Origin: Betaproteobacteria bacterium
Lineage (GTDB): Bacteria > Pseudomonadota > Gammaproteobacteria > Burkholderiales > SHXO01
Direction: 5' to 3'
Assembly (NCBI GenBank): GCA_009693245.1
Contig: SHXO01000024.1
Span: forward strand, 1 to 33,795
Length of the DNA: 33,795 bases
The notes beneath the pieces were generated by a model. The model did not search any database and was not told where the DNA came from. It saw nothing but the letters and a program-made list of their open reading frames with translations. Each line of letters begins with the position of its first letter. Position 1 is the stretch's first letter. A program made the position numbers and the translations under genes. Below are positions 6,862 through 19,561 of this stretch, one piece after another.

Positions 6862-7464
6862 CTATGGTAGGAATCTACAAAAAGCTGCAGTAAGCATATT
6901 GGCAGGATATATTTTTTTACAATGTCCACCTAAAAAACTGAAGCCAGGTGGACAAGTCGCGGCAACGGTTAGGGTGCAAGCATAGCCGTTCGATGATGTT
7001 AAAGATAGATTTCCTCCCTGAGGACAGTCATAAACTGCTGCACCTCTGTCCAATACGCCGATTGTGTGATCAGCTCCGCCGGTGGCTAAGTTTCCGGCTT
7101 TTGATATGGCTCGGACAATGTCATTGTCTAGGGCGCCCGCGGCTGCCACGACGATGCTGCCCAAAAATCCGGTTTTCCCGCCCTGGACACGTAATTGCAG
7201 CGTGCTGCGCTGCGCGATCAGCCAGACCATGAGCAACGCTCCGCCATAGGAGAATAGTTTGACCAACTGCGACGCGGTGAGCTTCGCGGTACCGAGTGTG
7301 GCCCGCTTGAACAGAGTCAAATCGCCCAGCAGGCTCCCGAGTAACATCAGCACGAATATGATCACCATGTAGGGGGCCAGCCAAGCCCAGCTTGCGGCCG
7401 GCGCCGCGACGGAAGGGGCGGGCGCGGATTCGATGGGCATCGAAGGTGCCGTCTGGGTGGTCAT
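6862..7464 (-). CDS. Apparently chimeric protein: small membrane protein with a Cys-rich tail
   Basis: I do not recognise this 200-residue protein as a whole. After a flexible Ala/Pro/Ser-rich start (to about residue 28), two hydrophobic segments (WLAPYMVIIFVLMLLGSLLG and LFSYGGALLMVWLIA) form a small inner-membrane protein of a kind often annotated 'hypothetical' in betaproteobacteria. From about residue 110 the character changes. The tail has five cysteines in patterns such as YDCPQGGNLS and ATCPPGFSFLGGHC, recalling Cys-rich repeats of bacterial surface proteins, and the DNA becomes AT-richer. A fusion by deletion or insertion would explain this. The ATG at 7462-7464 is chosen over an upstream start at 7545 because AGGAG lies 8 bases before it. 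It could also be one real, unusual protein. Confidence 0.6.
   Translation of the reverse strand: MTTQTAPSMPIESAPAPSVAAPAASWAWLAPYMVIIFVLMLLGSLLGDLTLFKRATLGTAKLTASQLVKLFSYGGALLMVWLIAQRSTLQLRVQGGKTGFLGSIVVAAAGALDNDIVRAISKAGNLATGGADHTIGVLDRGAAVYDCPQGGNLSLTSSNGYACTLTVAATCPPGFSFLGGHCKKIYPANMLTAAFCRFLP
6923..6954. repeat. Perfect 9-bp inverted repeat inside the Cys-rich tail
   Basis: TGTCCACCT (6923-6931) pairs exactly with AGGTGGACA (6946-6954) across a 14-base loop. It lies within the coding sequence for CPPGFSFLGGHC. No T-run follows on the minus strand (an A-run does), so it is not a standard terminator for that gene. It may be a remnant of a mobile element end or a chance product of the PP/GG codons. 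Confidence 0.5.
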
Positions 7465-7625
7465 GGGGTTTTCTCCTCTTGGTACAAGACAAAGTGCGGG
7501 AGCCGGGAATCTAATCCAGGCCATGGCCGCATGGTTCATGGGCAAAACTTTCCGCTGGCCGGAAGTTGCGGTCCACCCATATCGGACGCGAGGGCGGAAC
7601 CTTGATGCCCCGCCCGCCCTGGGGA

Positions 7626-7654
7626 TTGGCTCCCACCGAAACGCAAGGGATAAT
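7626..7654 (+). promoter_or_regulatory. Candidate sigma-70 promoter for the monooxygenase-VOC-cofD operon
   Basis: TTGGCT (7626-7631) and GATAAT (7649-7654) are separated by 17 bases, which is the optimal spacing. They lie about 32 bases upstream of the GTG start at 7686. Transcription would begin near 7661. This is the clearest promoter-like pair seen by eye in the window; no operator was recognised beside it. Confidence 0.5.
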
Positions 7655-7685
7655 GGCGCGTTAAAGCAAGCAAACCGAACATCTC

Positions 7686-8900
7686 GTGAAGAATAGAAGG
7701 GCTCTGATCATTGGCGGTTCTGTTGCCGGCCTGTTCGCCGGCAACCTGCTGCGCCAGCACGGCTGGGAGGTGGAGATCTACGAACGCGTGGCGGAGCCCC
7801 TCTCCAGCCGGGGCGCGGGGATTGCCACCCATGAGGAATTACTCGATCTTCTGCAACGCGTGGGGGTGCCGGCGGGGGAGACAGTGGGCGTGAGCTTGCG
7901 CTCCCGCGTGGTATTCGGTTCTTCCGGCGATATCGTGGGCGAACTGGAATATCCGCAAGTTCTCACGTCCTGGGGGCGGATCTATGAATTGCTCCTGGCG
8001 CAGTTTCCTTCCGGACAATATCGCCAAGGCGTGTCGGTCCTTCGCGTGGAGCAAAACGACACCGAAGTGACGGCGCATTTCGATGATGGCAGCCGCCGCG
8101 GCGCGGACCTGTTGGTTGCCGCCGACGGGACTCGGTCCACCATTCGCGCGCAGTTTCTGCCGCAAGTGACGCCGCTCTATGCGGGCTATGTGGCGTGGCG
8201 CGGCGTGGCAGAGGAGCCTCACCTGAGCCCCGAGACCAACGAAGATTTGTTCGGCCGCTTCAGTTTTTGTCTGCCTCCCGGGGAACAGTTGGTGGGCTAT
8301 CCCATCGCGGGGGATGGCAACAGCGCCGAGCCCGGTAAGCGCCGCTACAACATCGTTTGGTACCGGCCGGCGGACGAGAAGACCGATCTGGTGAGCATGC
8401 TCACGGACGCCCAGGGCAAGGTGCATGAATTCGGCATCCCGCCGCCCCTCATTCGCCAGGAGGTCATCGCCAAGGTGCGCGCCGATGCGCACCGGCTGTT
8501 GGCTCCCCAATTCGCGGAGGTCCTGTACCGTACGGCCCGCCCGTTCTTTCAGCCCATCTACGATCTGGAGTCACCGAGCCTCGTATTTGGGCGCGTGGTG
8601 CTCATCGGGGATGCGGCCTTCGTGGCGCGTCCCCACGTGGGCATGGGCGTGACCAAGGCGGGGAGCGATGCCGCAGCCCTTGCCGATGCGCTGGCGAACC
8701 CGGCGGCGCGGTATAGTGAAGCCTTGCGGGAATTCGAGAAAAAACGCTTGCATGTGGGAACGGCCATGATCGCGCGGGCACGCCATCTTGGCGCATACAT
8801 GCAGGCGCAGATTCGCAACGAACAGGAGCGCGCCATGGCGGAGCGCTACCGAACACCCGAGGCGGTGATGCGCGAAACCGCCGTCGCATTCGCAATTTAG
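7686..8900 (+). CDS. FAD-dependent aromatic-ring monooxygenase (2,6-dihydroxypyridine 3-monooxygenase-like)
   Basis: A 404-residue flavoprotein hydroxylase of the p-hydroxybenzoate hydroxylase fold. The dinucleotide motif is IIGGSVAGLFAGNLL near the N-terminus. LLVAADGTRSTIR is the DG motif, and VVLIGDAAFVARPHVGMG is the GD motif that contacts the FAD ribityl chain. RGAGIATHEELLDLL and AGYVAWRGV resemble the dihydroxypyridine and salicylate-type hydroxylases of N-heterocycle pathways, although the substrate is not fixed by sequence. Such enzymes use NAD(P)H and O2. The start is GTG at 7686, giving MKNRRALIIGG directly; no strong Shine-Dalgarno is present. VOC follows 14 bases after the stop and cofD overlaps VOC, so the three genes appear to form one transcript. 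Confidence 0.9.
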   Translation: MKNRRALIIGGSVAGLFAGNLLRQHGWEVEIYERVAEPLSSRGAGIATHEELLDLLQRVGVPAGETVGVSLRSRVVFGSSGDIVGELEYPQVLTSWGRIYELLLAQFPSGQYRQGVSVLRVEQNDTEVTAHFDDGSRRGADLLVAADGTRSTIRAQFLPQVTPLYAGYVAWRGVAEEPHLSPETNEDLFGRFSFCLPPGEQLVGYPIAGDGNSAEPGKRRYNIVWYRPADEKTDLVSMLTDAQGKVHEFGIPPPLIRQEVIAKVRADAHRLLAPQFAEVLYRTARPFFQPIYDLESPSLVFGRVVLIGDAAFVARPHVGMGVTKAGSDAAALADALANPAARYSEALREFEKKRLHVGTAMIARARHLGAYMQAQIRNEQERAMAERYRTPEAVMRETAVAFAI

Positions 8901-8914
8901 ACCAAGGAGGCAAC

Positions 8915-9355
8915 ATGGCCATAGGGAAACTCGATCACTACACCATCCGCACCACGGACTTGGAGGCATCCCGCAAGTTCTACACGGAAGTCATGGGATT
9001 CACCGTGGGCCACCGCCCGCCCTTCAATTTCCCTGGGATTTGGCTGTACAACGGCACGACATTCCCCGAGACCTACGGCGTGGTGCATATCATCGGAGTC
9101 GATCCCAACGACAAGGAAGCGCTCAACGCCTACATGGGCGACCGCTACGATGTCAGCATGTTGAAGGGCACCGGCACCGTGGACCACATGGCGTTTCGCG
9201 CCACCGGGTTCGAGGAAACCAAGGACAATCTGCGTAAACAACAGGTGCCCTTCCGCGAGGCGACGGTTCCCAACCTCGGATTGCACCAGGTATTCCTGGA
9301 AGATCCGAGCGACGTCACCATCGAGCTGAACTTCTTCGCCAACGATCAGGGGTGA
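8915..9355 (+). CDS. VOC-superfamily protein (glyoxalase/extradiol dioxygenase fold)
   Basis: A 146-residue vicinal-oxygen-chelate protein. The opening KLDHYTIRTTDLEASRKFY is the standard first beta-alpha-beta unit, and a second unit begins with GTVDHMAFRATGFEE. Metal ligands are probably H8 in LDHYT, H in VDHMAF and the E in VTIELNFF. At this size it could be a lyase, isomerase or ring-opening dioxygenase. AAGGAGG at 8904-8910 lies 4 bases before the ATG and is the strongest ribosome binding site in this operon. The stop overlaps the GTG start of cofD (GTGA). Confidence 0.9.
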   Translation: MAIGKLDHYTIRTTDLEASRKFYTEVMGFTVGHRPPFNFPGIWLYNGTTFPETYGVVHIIGVDPNDKEALNAYMGDRYDVSMLKGTGTVDHMAFRATGFEETKDNLRKQQVPFREATVPNLGLHQVFLEDPSDVTIELNFFANDQG

Positions 9356-10293
9356 TACTCGCCCTGGCGGGTGGAGTCGGCGGCGCCAAGCTCGCCACGG
9401 GCTTGGCTCGCGCACTGCCCCCGTCCGAACTCATGATAGTCGTCAACACAGCTGATGACTTCGAGCACTTGGGCCTGCACATCTCGCCCGACCTCGACAC
9501 CGTGATGTACAACCTCGCCGGTGTCCATGATCCGGAACTGGGGTGGGGTATCGCCAACGAGACCTGGAACTTCATGGCGGCGTTGAAAATGCTGGGCGGC
9601 GAGACTTGGTTTCAGTTGGGCGACCGCGACCTCGCCACCCACCTCGAGCGTACACGCCGGCTGAAAGCAGGGGAGGGATTGACCAGCGTCACCCAAGCTC
9701 TCCACAGAAGCCTGGGCGTACAGCACGCCATCGTCCCCATGAGCGACGATTCGGTGCGAACCATCGTTCACACCGAAAGCGGCCGCCTGGCTTTCCAGGA
9801 TTATTTTGTGCGGCTCAAATGCGAACCCGCGGTGAAAAGGATCGAGTACGAAGGCGCCGCGCGGGCACGGCCAAGCGCGGCATTCAGCGCGACGCTCGGC
9901 GATGAGCGATTGCGCGGCATCGTGATCTGCCCGTCCAACCCGTTCTTGAGCGTGGCGCCTATTCTTGCAATTCCCGGTGTGCGAGAGAAACTTCAATCCA
10001 GGCAGGTACCAGTGATCGCGGTGTCCCCCATCGTGGGCGGGCGAGCCATCAAGGGGCCGGCGGCGAAGTTGTTTCAGGAGCTAGGCAAGGAAGCCTCGGT
10101 CACCGAGGTAGCGCGCTTCTATCGCGGGTTGGTGGATAAGCTGGCGATCGACGAAGTGGACCGGCCATCGATGAGCGCGATCCGCGACTTGGGAATCGAA
10201 CCGGTGGTGGCTAGGACGGTGATGAGCAGCGATGCGGACAAGGAGCTATTGGCTAGGGAAGTAGTGAGCGCATGCGTGCCGGGATTGTCATGA
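9352..10293 (+). CDS. cofD: 2-phospho-L-lactate transferase (CofD), coenzyme F420 biosynthesis
   Basis: CofD transfers a phospho-acid moiety (phosphoenolpyruvyl, phospholactyl or phosphoglyceryl, depending on lineage) from a GDP-activated donor to Fo, making F420-0 or its dehydro form. The 313 residues carry the family hallmarks in order: LAGGVGGAKLATGLA at the N-terminus, NTADDFEHLGLHISPDLDTV, NETWNF, FQLGDRDLATHLERT, MSDDSVRTIV and SNPFLSVAPIL. Length is normal (about 310-330). The GTG at 9352 overlaps the VOC stop by 4 bases, so the genes are translationally coupled. F420 genes are uncommon in betaproteobacteria, and no cofC, cofE or Fo synthase is present in the window. Which donor it uses cannot be read reliably from sequence by eye. 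Confidence 0.93.
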   Translation: MILALAGGVGGAKLATGLARALPPSELMIVVNTADDFEHLGLHISPDLDTVMYNLAGVHDPELGWGIANETWNFMAALKMLGGETWFQLGDRDLATHLERTRRLKAGEGLTSVTQALHRSLGVQHAIVPMSDDSVRTIVHTESGRLAFQDYFVRLKCEPAVKRIEYEGAARARPSAAFSATLGDERLRGIVICPSNPFLSVAPILAIPGVREKLQSRQVPVIAVSPIVGGRAIKGPAAKLFQELGKEASVTEVARFYRGLVDKLAIDEVDRPSMSAIRDLGIEPVVARTVMSSDADKELLAREVVSACVPGLS

Positions 10294-10335
10294 CCAGCGG
10301 CCGCCAAAATGTCATTCACCTCCTCTAACCATGGA

Positions 10336-10391
10336 CCACACGGAATACACGGAAAATTCCAGGTTCTAGTTTTATTCCGTGTGTTCCGTGG
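10336..10391. repeat. Intergenic palindrome, CACGGAA type
   Basis: The left arm reads CCACACGGAATACACGGAA (10336-10354) and the right arm TTCCGTGTGTTCCGTGG (10375-10391), near-complementary with a small bulge. It fills the space between the plus-strand cofD and the minus-strand dioxygenase. Sequences of this form recur between genes in many environmental proteobacteria. It may also act as a bidirectional terminator, though it has no long T-run. Confidence 0.6.
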
Positions 10392-10412
10392 TTAATGCTC
10401 TTCTCTCGATTC

Positions 10413-11249
10413 TCACCCCACCGCCGCCGAACTCACGGTCCCGCCCGCATAACGCTTGTGCCACGAATCGTGGCCGTGGGTGAGGTCGTTCTTGTCGGTA
10501 CGGTCCGCGCCGCGCATCAACCATAGAGGCTGCTCGTAAATGTTGAAAGGGGTGTTGTCGCGCCGTTGGTCCACCAAAGAGCGGTCGTAGTACGAGGTGG
10601 CCGGCATGTAGCGCATGATGAGCGCGCCACGGCGCTGGCCGGAATTGTTGGCGAGGGATCCGTGGATGAGGCGCACGTCGTGCAGCGATATCTGGCCGGG
10701 TTCCAATTCGATATTCACGGCGTCGGCTTCGTTGAATTGATCCTGGTCGAGTTCCAGATTGAGCACCAGATTCTCGCGATTCGAAACGTGATGCCGGTAC
10801 ATCTCTTTTCGATTGTGCGAACCCGGAATGAAGCGCATGCAGCCGTTGAGGGTGGATACTGGATCGATGGCGACCCAGGCGGAGCAGGTGGCGAGCGGCC
10901 GCATGGGCCAATACTCGCCATCTTGGTGCCACGGCACCTCGCGTCCTTTCACCGCCGGTTTGCACAGGATACGCGTGATCCACAAGATGATGTCGCGGCC
11001 GATCAACTGCTCGATCATGTCCAGCAACGCCGGATGCCGCGCCGCCGTCATGAATGGGTTGGCGTTAGCGCCATCCACTGGCGGTAGCATGTGCGGATTG
11101 GCGAGATCCTCCTGCTTGACGTCGGTGTAGGCCGCCAGAAGATCCGCCATTCCTTTTTGCAGCCGTTTGAGCAATTCATCCGGCAACCGAAAGTTCGGAA
11201 TGACGTAGCCACGCTCGTGGTAATGCTCGATTTCTTTCTCGGTCAACAT
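10413..11249 (-). CDS. Phytanoyl-CoA dioxygenase (PhyH) family, Fe(II)/2-oxoglutarate oxygenase
   Basis: A 278-residue double-stranded beta-helix oxygenase that would hydroxylate an organic substrate with O2 and 2-oxoglutarate at Fe(II). The facial triad is visible: H108-Q-D110 in VPWHQDGEYW and the distal histidine H196 in HDVRLIHGS, with R207 near by for 2-oxoglutarate binding. MRFIPGSHNRKEMYRH is a conserved PhyH segment. TAGGAG lies about 8 bases before the ATG at 11247-11249. The substrate is unknown; bacterial members act on fatty acyls, osmolytes, alkaloids and secondary metabolites. The flanks are palindromic repeats, so it is probably transcribed alone or after the flavoprotein gene upstream. 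Confidence 0.92.
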   Translation of the reverse strand: MLTEKEIEHYHERGYVIPNFRLPDELLKRLQKGMADLLAAYTDVKQEDLANPHMLPPVDGANANPFMTAARHPALLDMIEQLIGRDIILWITRILCKPAVKGREVPWHQDGEYWPMRPLATCSAWVAIDPVSTLNGCMRFIPGSHNRKEMYRHHVSNRENLVLNLELDQDQFNEADAVNIELEPGQISLHDVRLIHGSLANNSGQRRGALIMRYMPATSYYDRSLVDQRRDNTPFNIYEQPLWLMRGADRTDKNDLTHGHDSWHKRYAGGTVSSAAVG

Positions 11250-11268
11250 GCAACAAACTCCTAAAGAA

Positions 11269-11301
11269 CAAGCCGGGCTTCGCGAATTCAGCCCAACCTA
11301 C
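11269..11301 (-). repeat. Dispersed intergenic repeat, GTAGGTTGGGCTGAA family, copy 1
   Basis: The minus strand reads GTAGGTTGGGCTGAA (11287-11301) followed by TTCGCGAAGCCCGGCTT. The first 15 bases are identical to the copy at 12123-12137, and the rest follows the same GCGAAGCC pattern. This is a well-known type of short intergenic repeat in environmental betaproteobacteria. It lies in the leader of the PhyH gene. Confidence 0.7.
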
Positions 11302-11306
11302 GCCCC

Positions 11307-11334
11307 CTCACGTTTCACCCTTCACGCTTCACGG
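11307..11334. repeat. Heptamer tandem repeat (TTCACSC type)
   Basis: Four consecutive seven-base units read CTCACGT, TTCACCC, TTCACGC and TTCACGG. They lie between the GGTTGGGCT-type repeat and the end of the flavoprotein gene. The pattern resembles the 'TTCACCCTTCACGTTTCAC' intergenic sequences found in various proteobacteria. Confidence 0.5.
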
Positions 11335-11337
11335 TTC

Positions 11338-12000
11338 TTAGGCTTCTTCACTACCTTGGTACAACTTTCCGAACCAATCCTCGACCGTGAGCAATCCGCC
11401 GGCCTTCGCGGCCTTGCCTTGATCCTTGGCCGGCAGGGCGTCTTGCACGATATCCATGCGCTTCCAGCCGGCGAGCGGGGTTTCGCAAGCCTTGCGTGGC
11501 ACGTAGCGGGAAGCCTTGACCTTTTCGAAGCGATGCACATAGCGCGGGCAATTGGGCCATAGGCCTTCGACGGTGACTCTCACAATGCCTTGAGCTTCGG
11601 CGTAGTCCAGCATGAGCGGGTCGTTCATGTCGGCCTTGGCGGTGCCTTGCACGCGCAAGCGGTTGGGGGTGGTGAAGTCGATGAACAGCATGCCGATCTT
11701 GGCGTTACCCGCGATGTTGCCCCAGGAGTAGAACATCCCGTTGCCGTCGTAGAAGGGAAAGGCGATGGTCTTGCTGTCCACCACTCTTACGAATCCCGGA
11801 TCGCCTCCCTTGTAGGAAACGGTCGGATTGCCGTTCTGGTCCACGGTGGACAAAAAAAACATGTCGCGCGATTCGATGAAGGTCTTGGTGTTGGCATCGA
11901 CTTCCTTGGCGATGAAGCCGCCTTCGATCAAATCCGCCAAACGGCGCGTGTCGAATTGGTCCTGCAACGCGCGATGCTGCGCGCCGTAAACATTGCTCAT
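11338..12000 (-). CDS. Pyridoxamine 5'-phosphate oxidase-like flavin-binding protein
   Basis: A 220-residue split-barrel protein of the pyridoxamine-phosphate-oxidase superfamily. Recognisable parts are IESRDMFFLSTVDQNGNPTVSYKGGDPGFVRV and GNAKIGMLFIDFTTPNRLRVQGTA, which form the flavin-binding barrel, and then a C-terminal part WPNCPRYVHRFEKVKASRYVP. This form is typical of the group annotated 'pyridoxamine 5'-phosphate oxidase family' that is not PdxH: it lacks the PdxH-specific C-terminus. It may bind FMN, or F420 in related subfamilies, which is worth noting because cofD lies 1 kb away. GGAGGAG precedes the ATG at 11998-12000 by 5 bases. It is probably a soluble reductase or oxidase with an unknown substrate. 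Confidence 0.88.
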   Translation of the reverse strand: MSNVYGAQHRALQDQFDTRRLADLIEGGFIAKEVDANTKTFIESRDMFFLSTVDQNGNPTVSYKGGDPGFVRVVDSKTIAFPFYDGNGMFYSWGNIAGNAKIGMLFIDFTTPNRLRVQGTAKADMNDPLMLDYAEAQGIVRVTVEGLWPNCPRYVHRFEKVKASRYVPRKACETPLAGWKRMDIVQDALPAKDQGKAAKAGGLLTVEDWFGKLYQGSEEA

Positions 12001-12099
12001 GTGCTCCTCCGGTAGTTGTTTTGGTCAGCCAAGCGCGAACGAGGAGGATGCTATCAGGAAACTTCCCGGGGGTACCGAGGAACGTTGGGCTCCAATGCA

Positions 12100-12155
12100 T
12101 TCAGCCCAACCTACACACCTCGGTAGGTTGGGCTGAACTTGCGAAGCCGAACAAA
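12100..12155. repeat. Dispersed intergenic repeat, GTAGGTTGGGCTGAA family, copies 2 and 3 as a perfect palindrome
   Basis: TTCAGCCCAACCTAC (12100-12114) and GTAGGTTGGGCTGAA (12123-12137) form a perfect 15-base stem with an 8-base loop. The right unit continues CTTGCGAAGCCGAAC in the same way as copy 1 at 11269-11301. A nearby GTTGGGCT (12084-12091) can pair alternatively with the left arm. The repeat lies between the Tim44-like gene and the flavoprotein gene, both on the minus strand, and could terminate the upstream transcript. Confidence 0.75.
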
Positions 12156-12166
12156 GCGCCCAACAG

Positions 12167-13069
12167 TTATTGGATCTGCTGAACCCCCGCCAACAGCCAT
12201 CCGGAGCGCCCGCTCTTGGGCTTGGCCAGATTCCATACTTCCTGGAACGGCTCCGCCGCCGCGTTGGGGGCTTCCCTGATGGCGCCTTTCAGGCGAACGC
12301 TGGCCAAATCTTCCCTCGCGCTGGCTTCAACTCCCAGCACTTCGGCCTCGAGGTCAATCACCTCGGTCTGCGTTTTTTCGCCCTTGAGTTCCGAGAGCTG
12401 CATCTTGATCTCGGCGTACATTTCAGGCGTGGTGAATTCGCGGATATCGGCTAGTTCCTTCGCATCCCAGGCCGCTTGCAGGCGGATGAAATGCACCTTG
12501 GCGCTGCGCTCGAAGCCTTCCTTGTCGAAATCCGCCGGGATTCCCCAGTTGGCGGCACCGGCGAAGGAGGACATCACCGAATTGGACGCGCCTCCTGGTA
12601 GCGGGGCCTGCGCGGAAAAATCGCTACTCTGCGGGCTCGCACCCGCGTAAACGTGTTCCTGGCGCGGCTGGGCTACGCTGGGTTGGCCACGGCGAAGCAT
12701 GCGCCATACGAACATGGCCGCCATCGCTAAGAGCAGGATCATGAGAATGCTGCCGAAGCCTTCCGAAAGACCGAGATGGGAAAACAGTGCCGCCAATCCC
12801 AAACCTGCCGCGATACCGGCGAGAGGGCCAAGCCAGCGGTTGCGTTGGGCTTGCTGCGGGGCCGCCCCTGGAGCAGTCTGGGTGGGGGCCGCTGCTGCAT
12901 TAGCGGGCGCGGCTTGTTTGTTCACGTTGCCCGACTGCCGCCCGAAACTCTTACCGCCTCCGAAGCGCCGGGCCGCCTCGGCATCTTGAGCGACCATGGC
13001 TAGAGAGCTGCCCAGAGCGATGGCGATGACGGCGAAGCGTGAGATCCATGTGCGAGAGGTGCTGGTCAT
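12167..13069 (-). CDS. Tim44-like domain membrane protein
   Basis: A 300-residue membrane-anchored protein. It begins with a signal or anchor helix (TWISRFAVIAIALGSSLAMV) ending near AEAARRFGGGKSFGRQ, a motif common at the start of bacterial Tim44-like proteins. A low-complexity Ala/Gln/Pro linker follows, then two membrane helices (WLGPLAGIAAGLGLAALFS and FGSILMILLLAMAAMFVW). From about residue 170 comes the Tim44/calcineurin-like soluble domain (FDKEGFERSAKVHFIRLQAA and EFTTPEMYAEIKMQL, with the C-terminal WNLAKPKSGRSGWLLAGVQQ). Mitochondrial Tim44 tethers Hsp70 to the import channel; the bacterial role is unclear and this family is broadly conserved. The ATG at 13067-13069 gives the signal start; an earlier start (13147) would add an unlikely N-terminus. 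Confidence 0.9.
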   Translation of the reverse strand: MTSTSRTWISRFAVIAIALGSSLAMVAQDAEAARRFGGGKSFGRQSGNVNKQAAPANAAAAPTQTAPGAAPQQAQRNRWLGPLAGIAAGLGLAALFSHLGLSEGFGSILMILLLAMAAMFVWRMLRRGQPSVAQPRQEHVYAGASPQSSDFSAQAPLPGGASNSVMSSFAGAANWGIPADFDKEGFERSAKVHFIRLQAAWDAKELADIREFTTPEMYAEIKMQLSELKGEKTQTEVIDLEAEVLGVEASAREDLASVRLKGAIREAPNAAAEPFQEVWNLAKPKSGRSGWLLAGVQQIQ

Positions 13070-17509: not shown

Positions 17510-19561
17510 CTATTCCTTCGAAAGTTTTTGGATTCTTATGAGGAAACTGCGTAGGTTCGAACGGTTGGCTACTTTCACTTGCGCAATAGCCTTCATGGAA
17601 TTTACACCATGCTCGACCTTATGTGTATCCGCTTCGCTAAATGGCTTGCCTTCGGGGTCGCGGCGCTCATATCGCTCTTGCCGCTTGGCAACTGGCGACT
17701 GAAGATGTACGTGGGTAAATGCTGGTCCAAAAGATTCAATTAGCAGGGCATGGTCTTCCGGGAACCGCATTCCATCAATTGCAATTCGGCGGCTATCGTT
17801 GAATAACCCCAGCAAACGCCTACCTAACCAACGCTGTCCAAGCTCGCGATTAACGTGTAGACCAAATTCCTGAAGGGCCCTTCTCGTTGGCTGTTCTCCT
17901 CTTTTGGTTAACTCATCTTCGAGCACCATACTATAACGCCCATAGCCGAATCCCAGGCTTTCAAGGTGTTTGGCTGCGGTTGTTTTGCCGCTGGCTAGCG
18001 GGCCACTGAATCCGATTACCTTCCTTGATTTCCAAGCCGTTGGGTCAATTCTTAGATCGGGAATAATTAAGGATTCTTCGTCGTCTTTCCCGAGACGCTC
18101 AAATCTACCAGCAAAGAAGAATAATCCAACGATAGCTGAGGTTATTGCATCCAATTCGTCATGCGTGACATCCTTGGTTATGAATCCCCCGCGAATCCCA
18201 AACTCCTTAAGACCTTGCTTTAGGAGCGGTAATCCAGCGCGCTTACGTGGAATATTCATGATGTCTTGAGCTGCCCCTGGGTAACTTTCAATCACAGCCA
18301 AGCCTAGCTTTCTAAACTCATCTGCCAACTTCAAACCTCGCGCAGTCAACCGCTGCATACTGGGTATTAGCGCGGGATACACATTTATTCCGCGCTTCTT
18401 AAGCACCCGTTCGCTATGGCGCATGATTCCAAACTCTTTCCGCCCAGGGTCATCATCGAAGGGCGACAGCCTCCCCGTCGGCAGGGATAAGGGAGAGTCG
18501 ATTGAAACCAAGTGCGGCTTGGCGGCCAATGTCGCCTTAATAATGTCTTCGTCAGTGCTCAGAGATTTTACTGTAGCGAAGGTGCCATTAAGAAGGCTCC
18601 AACCGGTGGGTCTTGCGGCTGATCCAGTCAGATCGATCCCAACAACGCGACAGTCTTTTATCCCACATTCCGTGAGCAAGGTAGTAGCCGTGATCCGCTT
18701 TTTATCTTCGATCTTAAAAGGCGGAATAAGGATCCCACTCGATCGCGTTGGGGTTGACCAACGGATGGCGTTGATCCCTTGAACGCGTGGGCGCTCACGT
18801 ATCAGGCTCTCAGGCGCGCCAAGCCGAACCATGGCGCGTTGAGCAACTTCATCGAATATGAATTGTAGTCCGCCAACGTCTGCGTGGTTATAAGCAATTA
18901 GGCGCCTCAATGCCTTTGTATCTCCGCGCGCATAGTTGGCCCAGAGTACGGGAGCGATTTCACCTTGAATTTTTTGAGCGATCTTGCTTCTGGCGAGCCC
19001 CAACTGATTCTCTATATCTTTCTGTCCGCCTGTTAGCCCAACCCGTTTACCGGCAAAGCGAAGATCAACGTGAATTGGCGGTAGTTCAACTCCAGGGAAA
19101 TCCTTCTGAAGGAATGGAATATCAAATAAAGTCCCGTTGTACGTAACGATTGCACTTGCGTCACGTAAGTCCCGCCTAAGTTTGCTGTCGTCTTGACCGC
19201 GTATGTGCACGTGATACTTGGAGTTTAGAGACCATCCAACGATCGTGACGATATCGTAGTACTTACTGAGCCCGGTCGTCTCCAAATCGAGGAAAATCGT
19301 GTCGTTGGGGTACTCCAGAACGACGCGAAACCAATCCTCAGGATACAGTTCGTTGGCAAAGAACTCGACATCCTTGTTCGCAATTGCCTGTATCGTTTCA
19401 GCAACAAGCGGGGCAGGTTTTGCATCGTGACCGTTCGAGAAGAGGTCCAACTGGTACGTTGGCTGAACATAGTCTTCGAGACGCATTATTCCACGCTGCC
19501 AGATGCGGCTCTCACTTTCGCGCAACAGTCCTCTTAGGTGCTTGAAGGTGGCGCGGAGCAT
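17510..19561 (-). CDS. Three-domain fusion: YprB-like exonuclease + DUF429 + P-loop nucleotide kinase-like protein
   Basis: A 683-residue cytoplasmic protein. Residues 1-30 (MLRATFKHLRGL and W-x-x-GI) match the opening of YprB-type RNase H-like proteins, which supports this start. Residues 85-240 form the exonuclease domain with DEDD-type motifs: D92-L-E94-T-T-G, YNGTLFD147 and Y224-N-H-A-D228. Residues 305-485 look like DUF429, an RNase H-fold domain with D310 (VGIDLTG), D355 (SIDSPLSLP), E425 (VIESYPGA) and D468 (THDELDA). Residues 512-683 carry a Walker A, G520-P-L-A-S-G-K526-T, and resemble dephospho-CoA or deoxynucleotide kinases. Linkers are short. The DNA is visibly AT-richer than its neighbours, suggesting transfer. 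It stands alone with no operon partner. A role in nucleic-acid processing or phage defence is inference. Confidence 0.85.
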   Translation of the reverse strand: MLRATFKHLRGLLRESESRIWQRGIMRLEDYVQPTYQLDLFSNGHDAKPAPLVAETIQAIANKDVEFFANELYPEDWFRVVLEYPNDTIFLDLETTGLSKYYDIVTIVGWSLNSKYHVHIRGQDDSKLRRDLRDASAIVTYNGTLFDIPFLQKDFPGVELPPIHVDLRFAGKRVGLTGGQKDIENQLGLARSKIAQKIQGEIAPVLWANYARGDTKALRRLIAYNHADVGGLQFIFDEVAQRAMVRLGAPESLIRERPRVQGINAIRWSTPTRSSGILIPPFKIEDKKRITATTLLTECGIKDCRVVGIDLTGSAARPTGWSLLNGTFATVKSLSTDEDIIKATLAAKPHLVSIDSPLSLPTGRLSPFDDDPGRKEFGIMRHSERVLKKRGINVYPALIPSMQRLTARGLKLADEFRKLGLAVIESYPGAAQDIMNIPRKRAGLPLLKQGLKEFGIRGGFITKDVTHDELDAITSAIVGLFFFAGRFERLGKDDEESLIIPDLRIDPTAWKSRKVIGFSGPLASGKTTAAKHLESLGFGYGRYSMVLEDELTKRGEQPTRRALQEFGLHVNRELGQRWLGRRLLGLFNDSRRIAIDGMRFPEDHALLIESFGPAFTHVHLQSPVAKRQERYERRDPEGKPFSEADTHKVEHGVNSMKAIAQVKVANRSNLRSFLIRIQKLSKE

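Follow-up and report, generated by a model that had tools for sequence, protein, structure and literature searches.

A nuclease-kinase fusion protein that looks like the orphan of a rare four-gene deoxynucleotide cassette

Does a single chain that joins nuclease-like parts to a nucleotide kinase work alone, or is it one piece of a larger system? The question is raised by P0001, a protein encoded in the window, by which we mean the whole 33,795-nucleotide stretch of betaproteobacterial DNA that was analysed. Its frame runs on the minus strand from an ATG at 19561 to a stop at 17510-17512 and specifies 683 amino acids, with the domains in the order exonuclease, RuvC-like DUF429, P-loop nucleotide kinase. 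An earlier note on this DNA had proposed this three-part architecture, with nuclease action tied to nucleotide phosphorylation, and a single-protein system with no partner gene adjacent. The features discussed below are the following.

17510..19561, minus strand: three-domain fusion P0001, apparent orphan, gene 1 of a deoxynucleotide cassette in its relatives (683 aa; homologue identity)
19472..19561, minus strand: N-terminal lead segment, residues 1-30 (motif MLxxTFxHLxG...ExxxWxxGI)
18848..19297, minus strand: DEDDy exonuclease domain, residues 89-238 (PF13482, MrfB profile match, invariance)
18047..18655, minus strand: DUF429-like domain with predicted RuvC fold, residues 303-505 (sub-threshold Pfam match, model, invariance)
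17513..18025, minus strand: P-loop nucleotide kinase domain, residues 513-683 (AAA_18, phrog_139, profile matches)
17981..18004, minus strand: Walker A GPLASGKT, residues 520-527 (sequence, invariance)

The proposed architecture is borne out by the Pfam score for RNase_H_2, by a RuvC-like model of the middle domain and by profile matches of the P-loop kinase. All the residues listed earlier (D92/E94, YNGTLFD ending at D147, Y224-NHA-D228, D310, D355, E425 and D468) lie at the positions given for them, and the sequence at 520-527 is indeed GPLASGKT. Domain searches of the separate parts agreed in part only, as RNase_H_2 passes its Pfam cut-off while DUF429 and the kinase stay below theirs in the window protein. 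All parts of the fusion belong to known superfamilies. The architecture predicted from the sequence holds up, as does the proposed coupling of nuclease action to nucleotide phosphorylation. An AlphaFold2 model of the whole fusion had a pLDDT of 43 and was left unused. No description of the fusion or of its cassette was found in the literature searched, which comprised open-access papers only.

The match of the exonuclease to PF13482 (RNase_H_2) scores 91.7 bits against a cut-off of 22, with an E-value of 6.5e-26, which is far beyond chance, and D92, E94, D147, Y224 and D228 are invariant in all eight full-length sequences. A profile built from four homologues and compared with the PDB matched the exonuclease MrfB (8un9) with E 4.9e-4. 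The fusion thus resembles the YprB/MrfB-type RNase_H_2 exonucleases in its strong family match and its retained DEDD residues, but differs from them in adding two further catalytic domains, in having Tyr in the last motif (DEDDy) and in its cassette context. The lead segment formed by residues 1-30 is common to stand-alone haloarchaeal RNase_H_2 proteins, and matches to plasmid sequences begin at query residue 2.

For the middle domain, a Pfam match to DUF429 starts at residue 308 and reaches 14.0 bits. The cut-off of 23 is never attained among the fusion relatives, the best score being 21.3 (L002), and we therefore call the domain DUF429-like. A model of this domain alone, made with AlphaFold2 from the window sequence and three cassette sequences only, has a pLDDT of 72. 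Foldseek places RuvC resolvases first among its matches (E 3e-5), and in a VIA comparison with RuvC it gives Z 14.8 over 144 aligned residues with an rmsd of 2.8. An RNase H-like/RuvC-like fold of the middle domain is hence supported by the model independently of the Pfam score. D310, D355, E425, D468 and D471 are invariant in 8/8 sequences, and by topology and spacing in the model D310, D355, D468 and D471 would match the catalytic residues of RuvC. This is also the most conserved part of the fusion (65-67% identity).

The same fold has been predicted for the DUF429 family (PF04250, COG2410/4328/4923), for which the only fusions listed are with NUDIX and RelA/SpoT (PMC3985635). The window domain shares with the family the Asp of the first strand and the SIDSPL motif as well as the RNase H-like/RuvC-like fold. 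It differs in scoring under the Pfam cut-off and in falling into a subfamily of its own, shared with a plasmid protein of Dyadobacter. On the Dyadobacter chenhuakuii plasmid NZ_CP099631.1 (L008:6432-8594), a gene for a diadenylate cyclase with DACNG-DACNH sensor domains is followed, 63 bp downstream, by one for this stand-alone DUF429 protein, which belongs to the subfamily of the window domain (53-55% identity); the two are possibly a cyclic-dinucleotide gene pair. In PADLOC, the DUF429 part matches the candidate system PDC-S44 weakly (E 3e-4 for the window, 2e-8 for Dyadobacter).

The kinase assignment draws on several matches, all of them weak. The window part (residues 516-640) scores 28.2 bits against 29.4 for AAA_18 (E 2.9e-6) and 12.4 against 27 for CoaE, both sub-threshold; the corresponding part of the relative L003 passes the two cut-offs with 37.0 and 30.6 bits. 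Among the PHROGs, it matches phrog_139, deoxynucleoside monophosphate kinase, with E 3e-8, and the four-homologue profile finds the UPF0200/AdkA-like structure 3lw7 and dephospho-CoA kinases in the PDB. The Walker A residues G520, A523, G525, K526 and T527 are invariant in 8/8 sequences.

A search for the architecture elsewhere found the same domain order, end to end, in other genera and in another class, and the fusion is therefore not an assembly artefact. Seven full-length relatives are 46-50% identical to the window protein. They come from a Rhodospirillales MAG (L002), from a genome of the same order (G182), from another class of the phylum (G686) and from four further genomes, all in the family of G182 (G1091, G1043, G1034 and G1112). 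To the first three of these, the exonuclease and kinase parts of the window protein are 40-44% identical.

It is in these relatives that the partners appear. The fusion is the first gene in 7/7, followed by a gene for a PurA/PurZ-like enzyme and then by one for a membrane protein with the DCD/dUTPase fold, and in 6/7 also by a deoxynucleoside kinase (dNK) gene; in the seventh, G1091, a contig of 4,218 bp breaks off inside the third gene or just past it. The first three operons are those of L002, L010 (G182) and L021 (G686), and four more belong to the family of G182, the dNK being seen also in L047. Neighbouring genes overlap or are separated by no more than about 25 bp, and their order is constant. 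The single-protein reading must thus be given up as a general state: given seven cassette-bearing relatives, the fusion is not a single-protein system by origin. That the four genes form a module is well supported.

The cassette is rare, and its patchy occurrence is of the kind left by horizontal spread. The fusion occurs in one of 78 genomes in the class of G686, in five of 125 in the family of G182, and in two of 300 genomes sampled from the order, the window genome included. In G686 the cassette is an insertion of ~4.95 kb (L021, about 7436-12390) that comprises these four genes alone; it contains neither an integrase nor a transposase gene. Nine genomes of the same genus lack the fusion; the flanks adjoin directly in seven of them, ~60 bp apart in the example measured, and only one flank was seen in the other two. 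Only one flank was available likewise in G018, of the same genus as G182. A phage origin of the fusion was considered and rejected: among 50,697 phage records there was one weak match (H12, annotated polB, E 3e-4), to the exonuclease part only, and IMG/VR gave no match by the patterns used.

We can now return to the window copy. The observation that no partner gene is adjacent stands for the window and for none of the seven relatives. A sulfatase gene lies downstream of the fusion, a divergent gene and a BatA/VWA cluster lie upstream, and the remaining contig genes scanned are mostly metabolic; neither a partner gene nor a convincing relic of one was found in the window. The genome, which is 97% complete, yielded only a PurA of canonical size, in a 440-codon frame that aligns as two pieces with 31-35% identity, and a single weak DCD match (E 0.006) in a frame of 213 codons; no dNK was found in the window contig. 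Small gene trees put the window copy, with moderate support, inside the diversity of the cassette-borne copies, a placement that speaks for lost partners rather than for a gene that was solitary from the start. The window copy thus looks like an orphan of the four-gene cassette, an origin that explains an otherwise puzzling three-domain protein. Synteny with its own genus is too poorly conserved to show an insertion.

The orphan either acts alone as a nuclease and kinase or is a recently orphaned remnant. A remnant already in decay, with no present function, would agree with the missing partner genes and with the position of the copy within the cassette diversity, and losses do occur, as seen from G104, where 31 residues of the C-terminal motif of this DUF429 subfamily, HDELDAITSAVVGVFFWAGMFERLG, survive at about 70% identity in otherwise unrelated sequence (L011:8831-8923). 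However, the frame of the window copy is open over its full length and every catalytic residue is kept. Private changes in its DUF429 and kinase parts are about as numerous as in other copies, and the identities of these parts to those copies equal the identities among the copies themselves; the exonuclease part and the linker have somewhat more private changes. We consider decay highly improbable. The survival of the copy without its partners also counts against the cassette reading preferred below, in that at least some of the function may be independent of them.

PurZ-type chemistry is known mainly from phages, which use it to alter their own DNA, and from a few archaeal sequences. The enzyme encoded by the second gene of the cassette, of 343-349 aa, scores 231-260 bits with the NCBIfam PurZ model NF038379 against a cut-off of 300, and is for that reason called PurZ-like here; with the archaeal-type short PurA model it scores 265-271 bits against 368. 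Its match to phrog_1211, annotated as 2-aminooxy adenylosuccinate synthetase, has E 6e-77. In the P-loop GGQFGSEGKGK, a Ser takes the place of the catalytic Asp13 of PurA and is invariant in eight sequences; in aligned structures the PurZ enzymes 7vf6 and 6fm1 have Ser and the archaeal short PurA 2d7u has Asp. In a published survey, Asp13 was changed to Ser in 100% of the phage PurZ proteins examined, while 99% of the PurA group had Asp (PMC12884076). Judged from sequence, the change suggests that the substrate is a 2-amino purine.

The likeness to the phage 2-aminoadenine pathway extends to the RVAGNSG loop and, for the PurZ0 phages, to the linked Dut/DCD-fold protein, which has its counterpart there in DutZ; a Dut-like gene is present in 98/98 PurZ0 phage genomes (PMC12884076). 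The cassette is nevertheless bacterial and chromosomal, has no purB, DNA polymerase, DatZ, MazZ or DpoZ gene, and adds the nuclease-kinase fusion, the dNK and a membrane helix. These differences bear on the possibility that dZTP is made for incorporation into DNA, as a Z-type modification, or that the cassette was captured from a PurZ phage. The hallmark Ser, the Dut-like proteins that accompany every PurZ0 phage (PMC12884076) and an Arthrobacter phage PurZ (39% identity) would all agree with it. With DatZ, MazZ and DpoZ missing, with no more than the one weak exonuclease-part match in the 50,697 phage records, with IMG/VR yielding nothing to the patterns used, and with the nearest PurZ-like relative outside the cassette (50% identity) on a plasmid of Sinorhizobium medicae and not in a phage, we regard this possibility as very unlikely.

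The third gene bears on another alternative. Defences that deplete dNTPs exist, such as dCTP deaminase and dGTPase, and the cassette could have an anti-phage or stress role of this kind without any modified nucleotide, its nucleases destroying DNA and its other enzymes depleting or rebalancing dNTPs. The DCD fold of the partner, which also has a predicted membrane helix and a C-terminal tail, is in favour of it, as is a weak PADLOC match to dCTPase, which is confined to the fusion's kinase part; a DCD fold and a P-loop kinase-like domain are indeed common to the cassette and the dCTP deaminase defence. However, the domains are linked differently, the PurZ-like and nuclease parts are extra, and the partners have an invariant Pro, in IPxHN/CPxYN, at a position that we take to be the site of the catalytic Glu in active dCTP deaminases. 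The kinases, moreover, would build nucleotides rather than deplete them. Such a role appears quite unlikely.

Our preferred reading, which we put forward tentatively, is that the cassette encodes a pathway for a base-modified deoxynucleotide, most likely serving anti-phage signalling or as an antimetabolite, by analogy with Kongming. Kongming consists of KomA, an adenosine deaminase, KomB, which is HAM1-like, and KomC, which is SIR2-like, and the Pfam families of the three are absent from the cassette genes scanned. In Kongming, a dITP signal is built from phage-derived dAMP with the aid of phage dNMP kinases (PMC12948488), and what the two would share is the logic of a base-modified dNTP immune signal made with dNMP kinase activity (PMC12948488); apart from the missing Kom families, they differ in that the kinases are encoded by the cassette itself and are not phage-derived.

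In the mechanism that we infer, the RuvC-like and DEDDy domains would degrade DNA, probably of phage or damaged, to dNMPs, chiefly as a supply of dGMP, and the dNK would feed the same pool by phosphorylating deoxynucleosides. The PurZ-like enzyme would join dGMP and aspartate to give succino-2-amino-dAMP, which PurB of the host could convert to dZMP, and the fused dNMP-kinase-like domain would phosphorylate the product further, towards the triphosphate. The DCD-fold membrane protein would bind or hydrolyse the modified nucleotide, either as the membrane effector of an abortive response or as a DutZ-like supplier of dGMP. The narrower version, an immune system in which the nucleases cut invading DNA down to dNMPs, the PurZ-like enzyme and the kinases turn them into a 2-amino-purine deoxynucleotide signal and the membrane protein receives it, is in our judgement doubtful.

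The pathway is favoured by the co-travel of the four genes in a fixed order, by the retention of the predicted nuclease residues and the P-loop, and by the Ser of the PurZ-like enzyme. Also in its favour are the insertion at a clean site, the rarity of the cassette, the joining of a related kinase to a PurZ-like enzyme in Rhizobium Kim5 (described below), the BilD, AbiJ-type or YfbR-like phosphatase genes close to other PurZ-like genes, and the weak PDC-S44 match. Against the modified nucleotide are the score below the NCBI cut-off for the PurZ model, the lack of purB and DNA polymerase genes in the cassette, the weakness of all matches that bear on the substrate of the kinase domain, and the Dyadobacter relative of the DUF429 part, which adjoins a diadenylate cyclase gene and not a PurZ gene. 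The cassette as a whole also matches no known defence system, and most of the copies seen lie outside any obvious defence island, flanked mostly by housekeeping genes, e.g. EttA, RlmJ and IleS. An anti-phage role is plausible all the same.

Insertion among housekeeping genes would also suit a non-immune role in the salvage or repair of deoxynucleotides, in which DNA fragments are turned into dNMP and then dNTP and the PurZ-like protein is an alternative purine enzyme. Each of the four parts either acts in (deoxy)nucleotide metabolism or is similar to enzymes that do, and the window gene persists alone. For salvage, however, movement as a unit and so patchy a distribution (1/78 and 5/125) would be unusual, the membrane-anchored DCD protein has no evident part to play, and the Ser in place of Asp speaks for a 2-amino purine as substrate. 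We find this role unlikely.

A bacterial cassette in which a PurZ-like enzyme is coupled to nucleases, kinases and a nucleotide-binding-fold membrane protein would either widen the range of base-modified immune signals beyond dITP or reveal a use of 2-aminoadenine chemistry by bacteria. DUF429, still annotated as of unknown function, gains from the cassette a pathway context that can be tested. No open-access paper was found that ties adenylosuccinate synthetase to defence.

Outside the cassette, PurZ-like genes occur near BilD, AbiJ-type or YfbR-like phosphatase genes. On the S. medicae plasmid pMl2 (L014:7302-11944), a PurZ-like and DCD-like pair is found with the fusion absent, a YfbR-like phosphatase gene being divergent upstream, while BilD (550 bits) follows closely downstream. 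On the Rhizobium sp. Kim5 plasmid NZ_CP021125.1 (L015:5449-9914), and similarly in Agrobacterium rubi (L017), a protein of 537 aa combines a PurZ-like enzyme with a relative of the fusion's kinase domain, which is an independent link between this kinase and PurZ-type chemistry. With DUF7002, a YfbR-like HD phosphatase and an unknown 452-aa protein, it makes up a second, different set of PurZ-like genes, which in Kim5 adjoins AbiJ-type and RelA/SpoT genes. On Rhizobium leguminosarum p3 (L016:6375-14721), a PurZ/PurA-like gene lies by folE, purB, queC, queE and 6-carboxytetrahydropterin synthase genes, an arrangement that resembles a 7-deazapurine pathway cluster equipped with a PurA/PurB pair of its own. 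In the window itself, positions 9352-10293 hold a CofD-like (2-phospho-L-lactate transferase) gene, of an enzyme family of the coenzyme F420 pathway.
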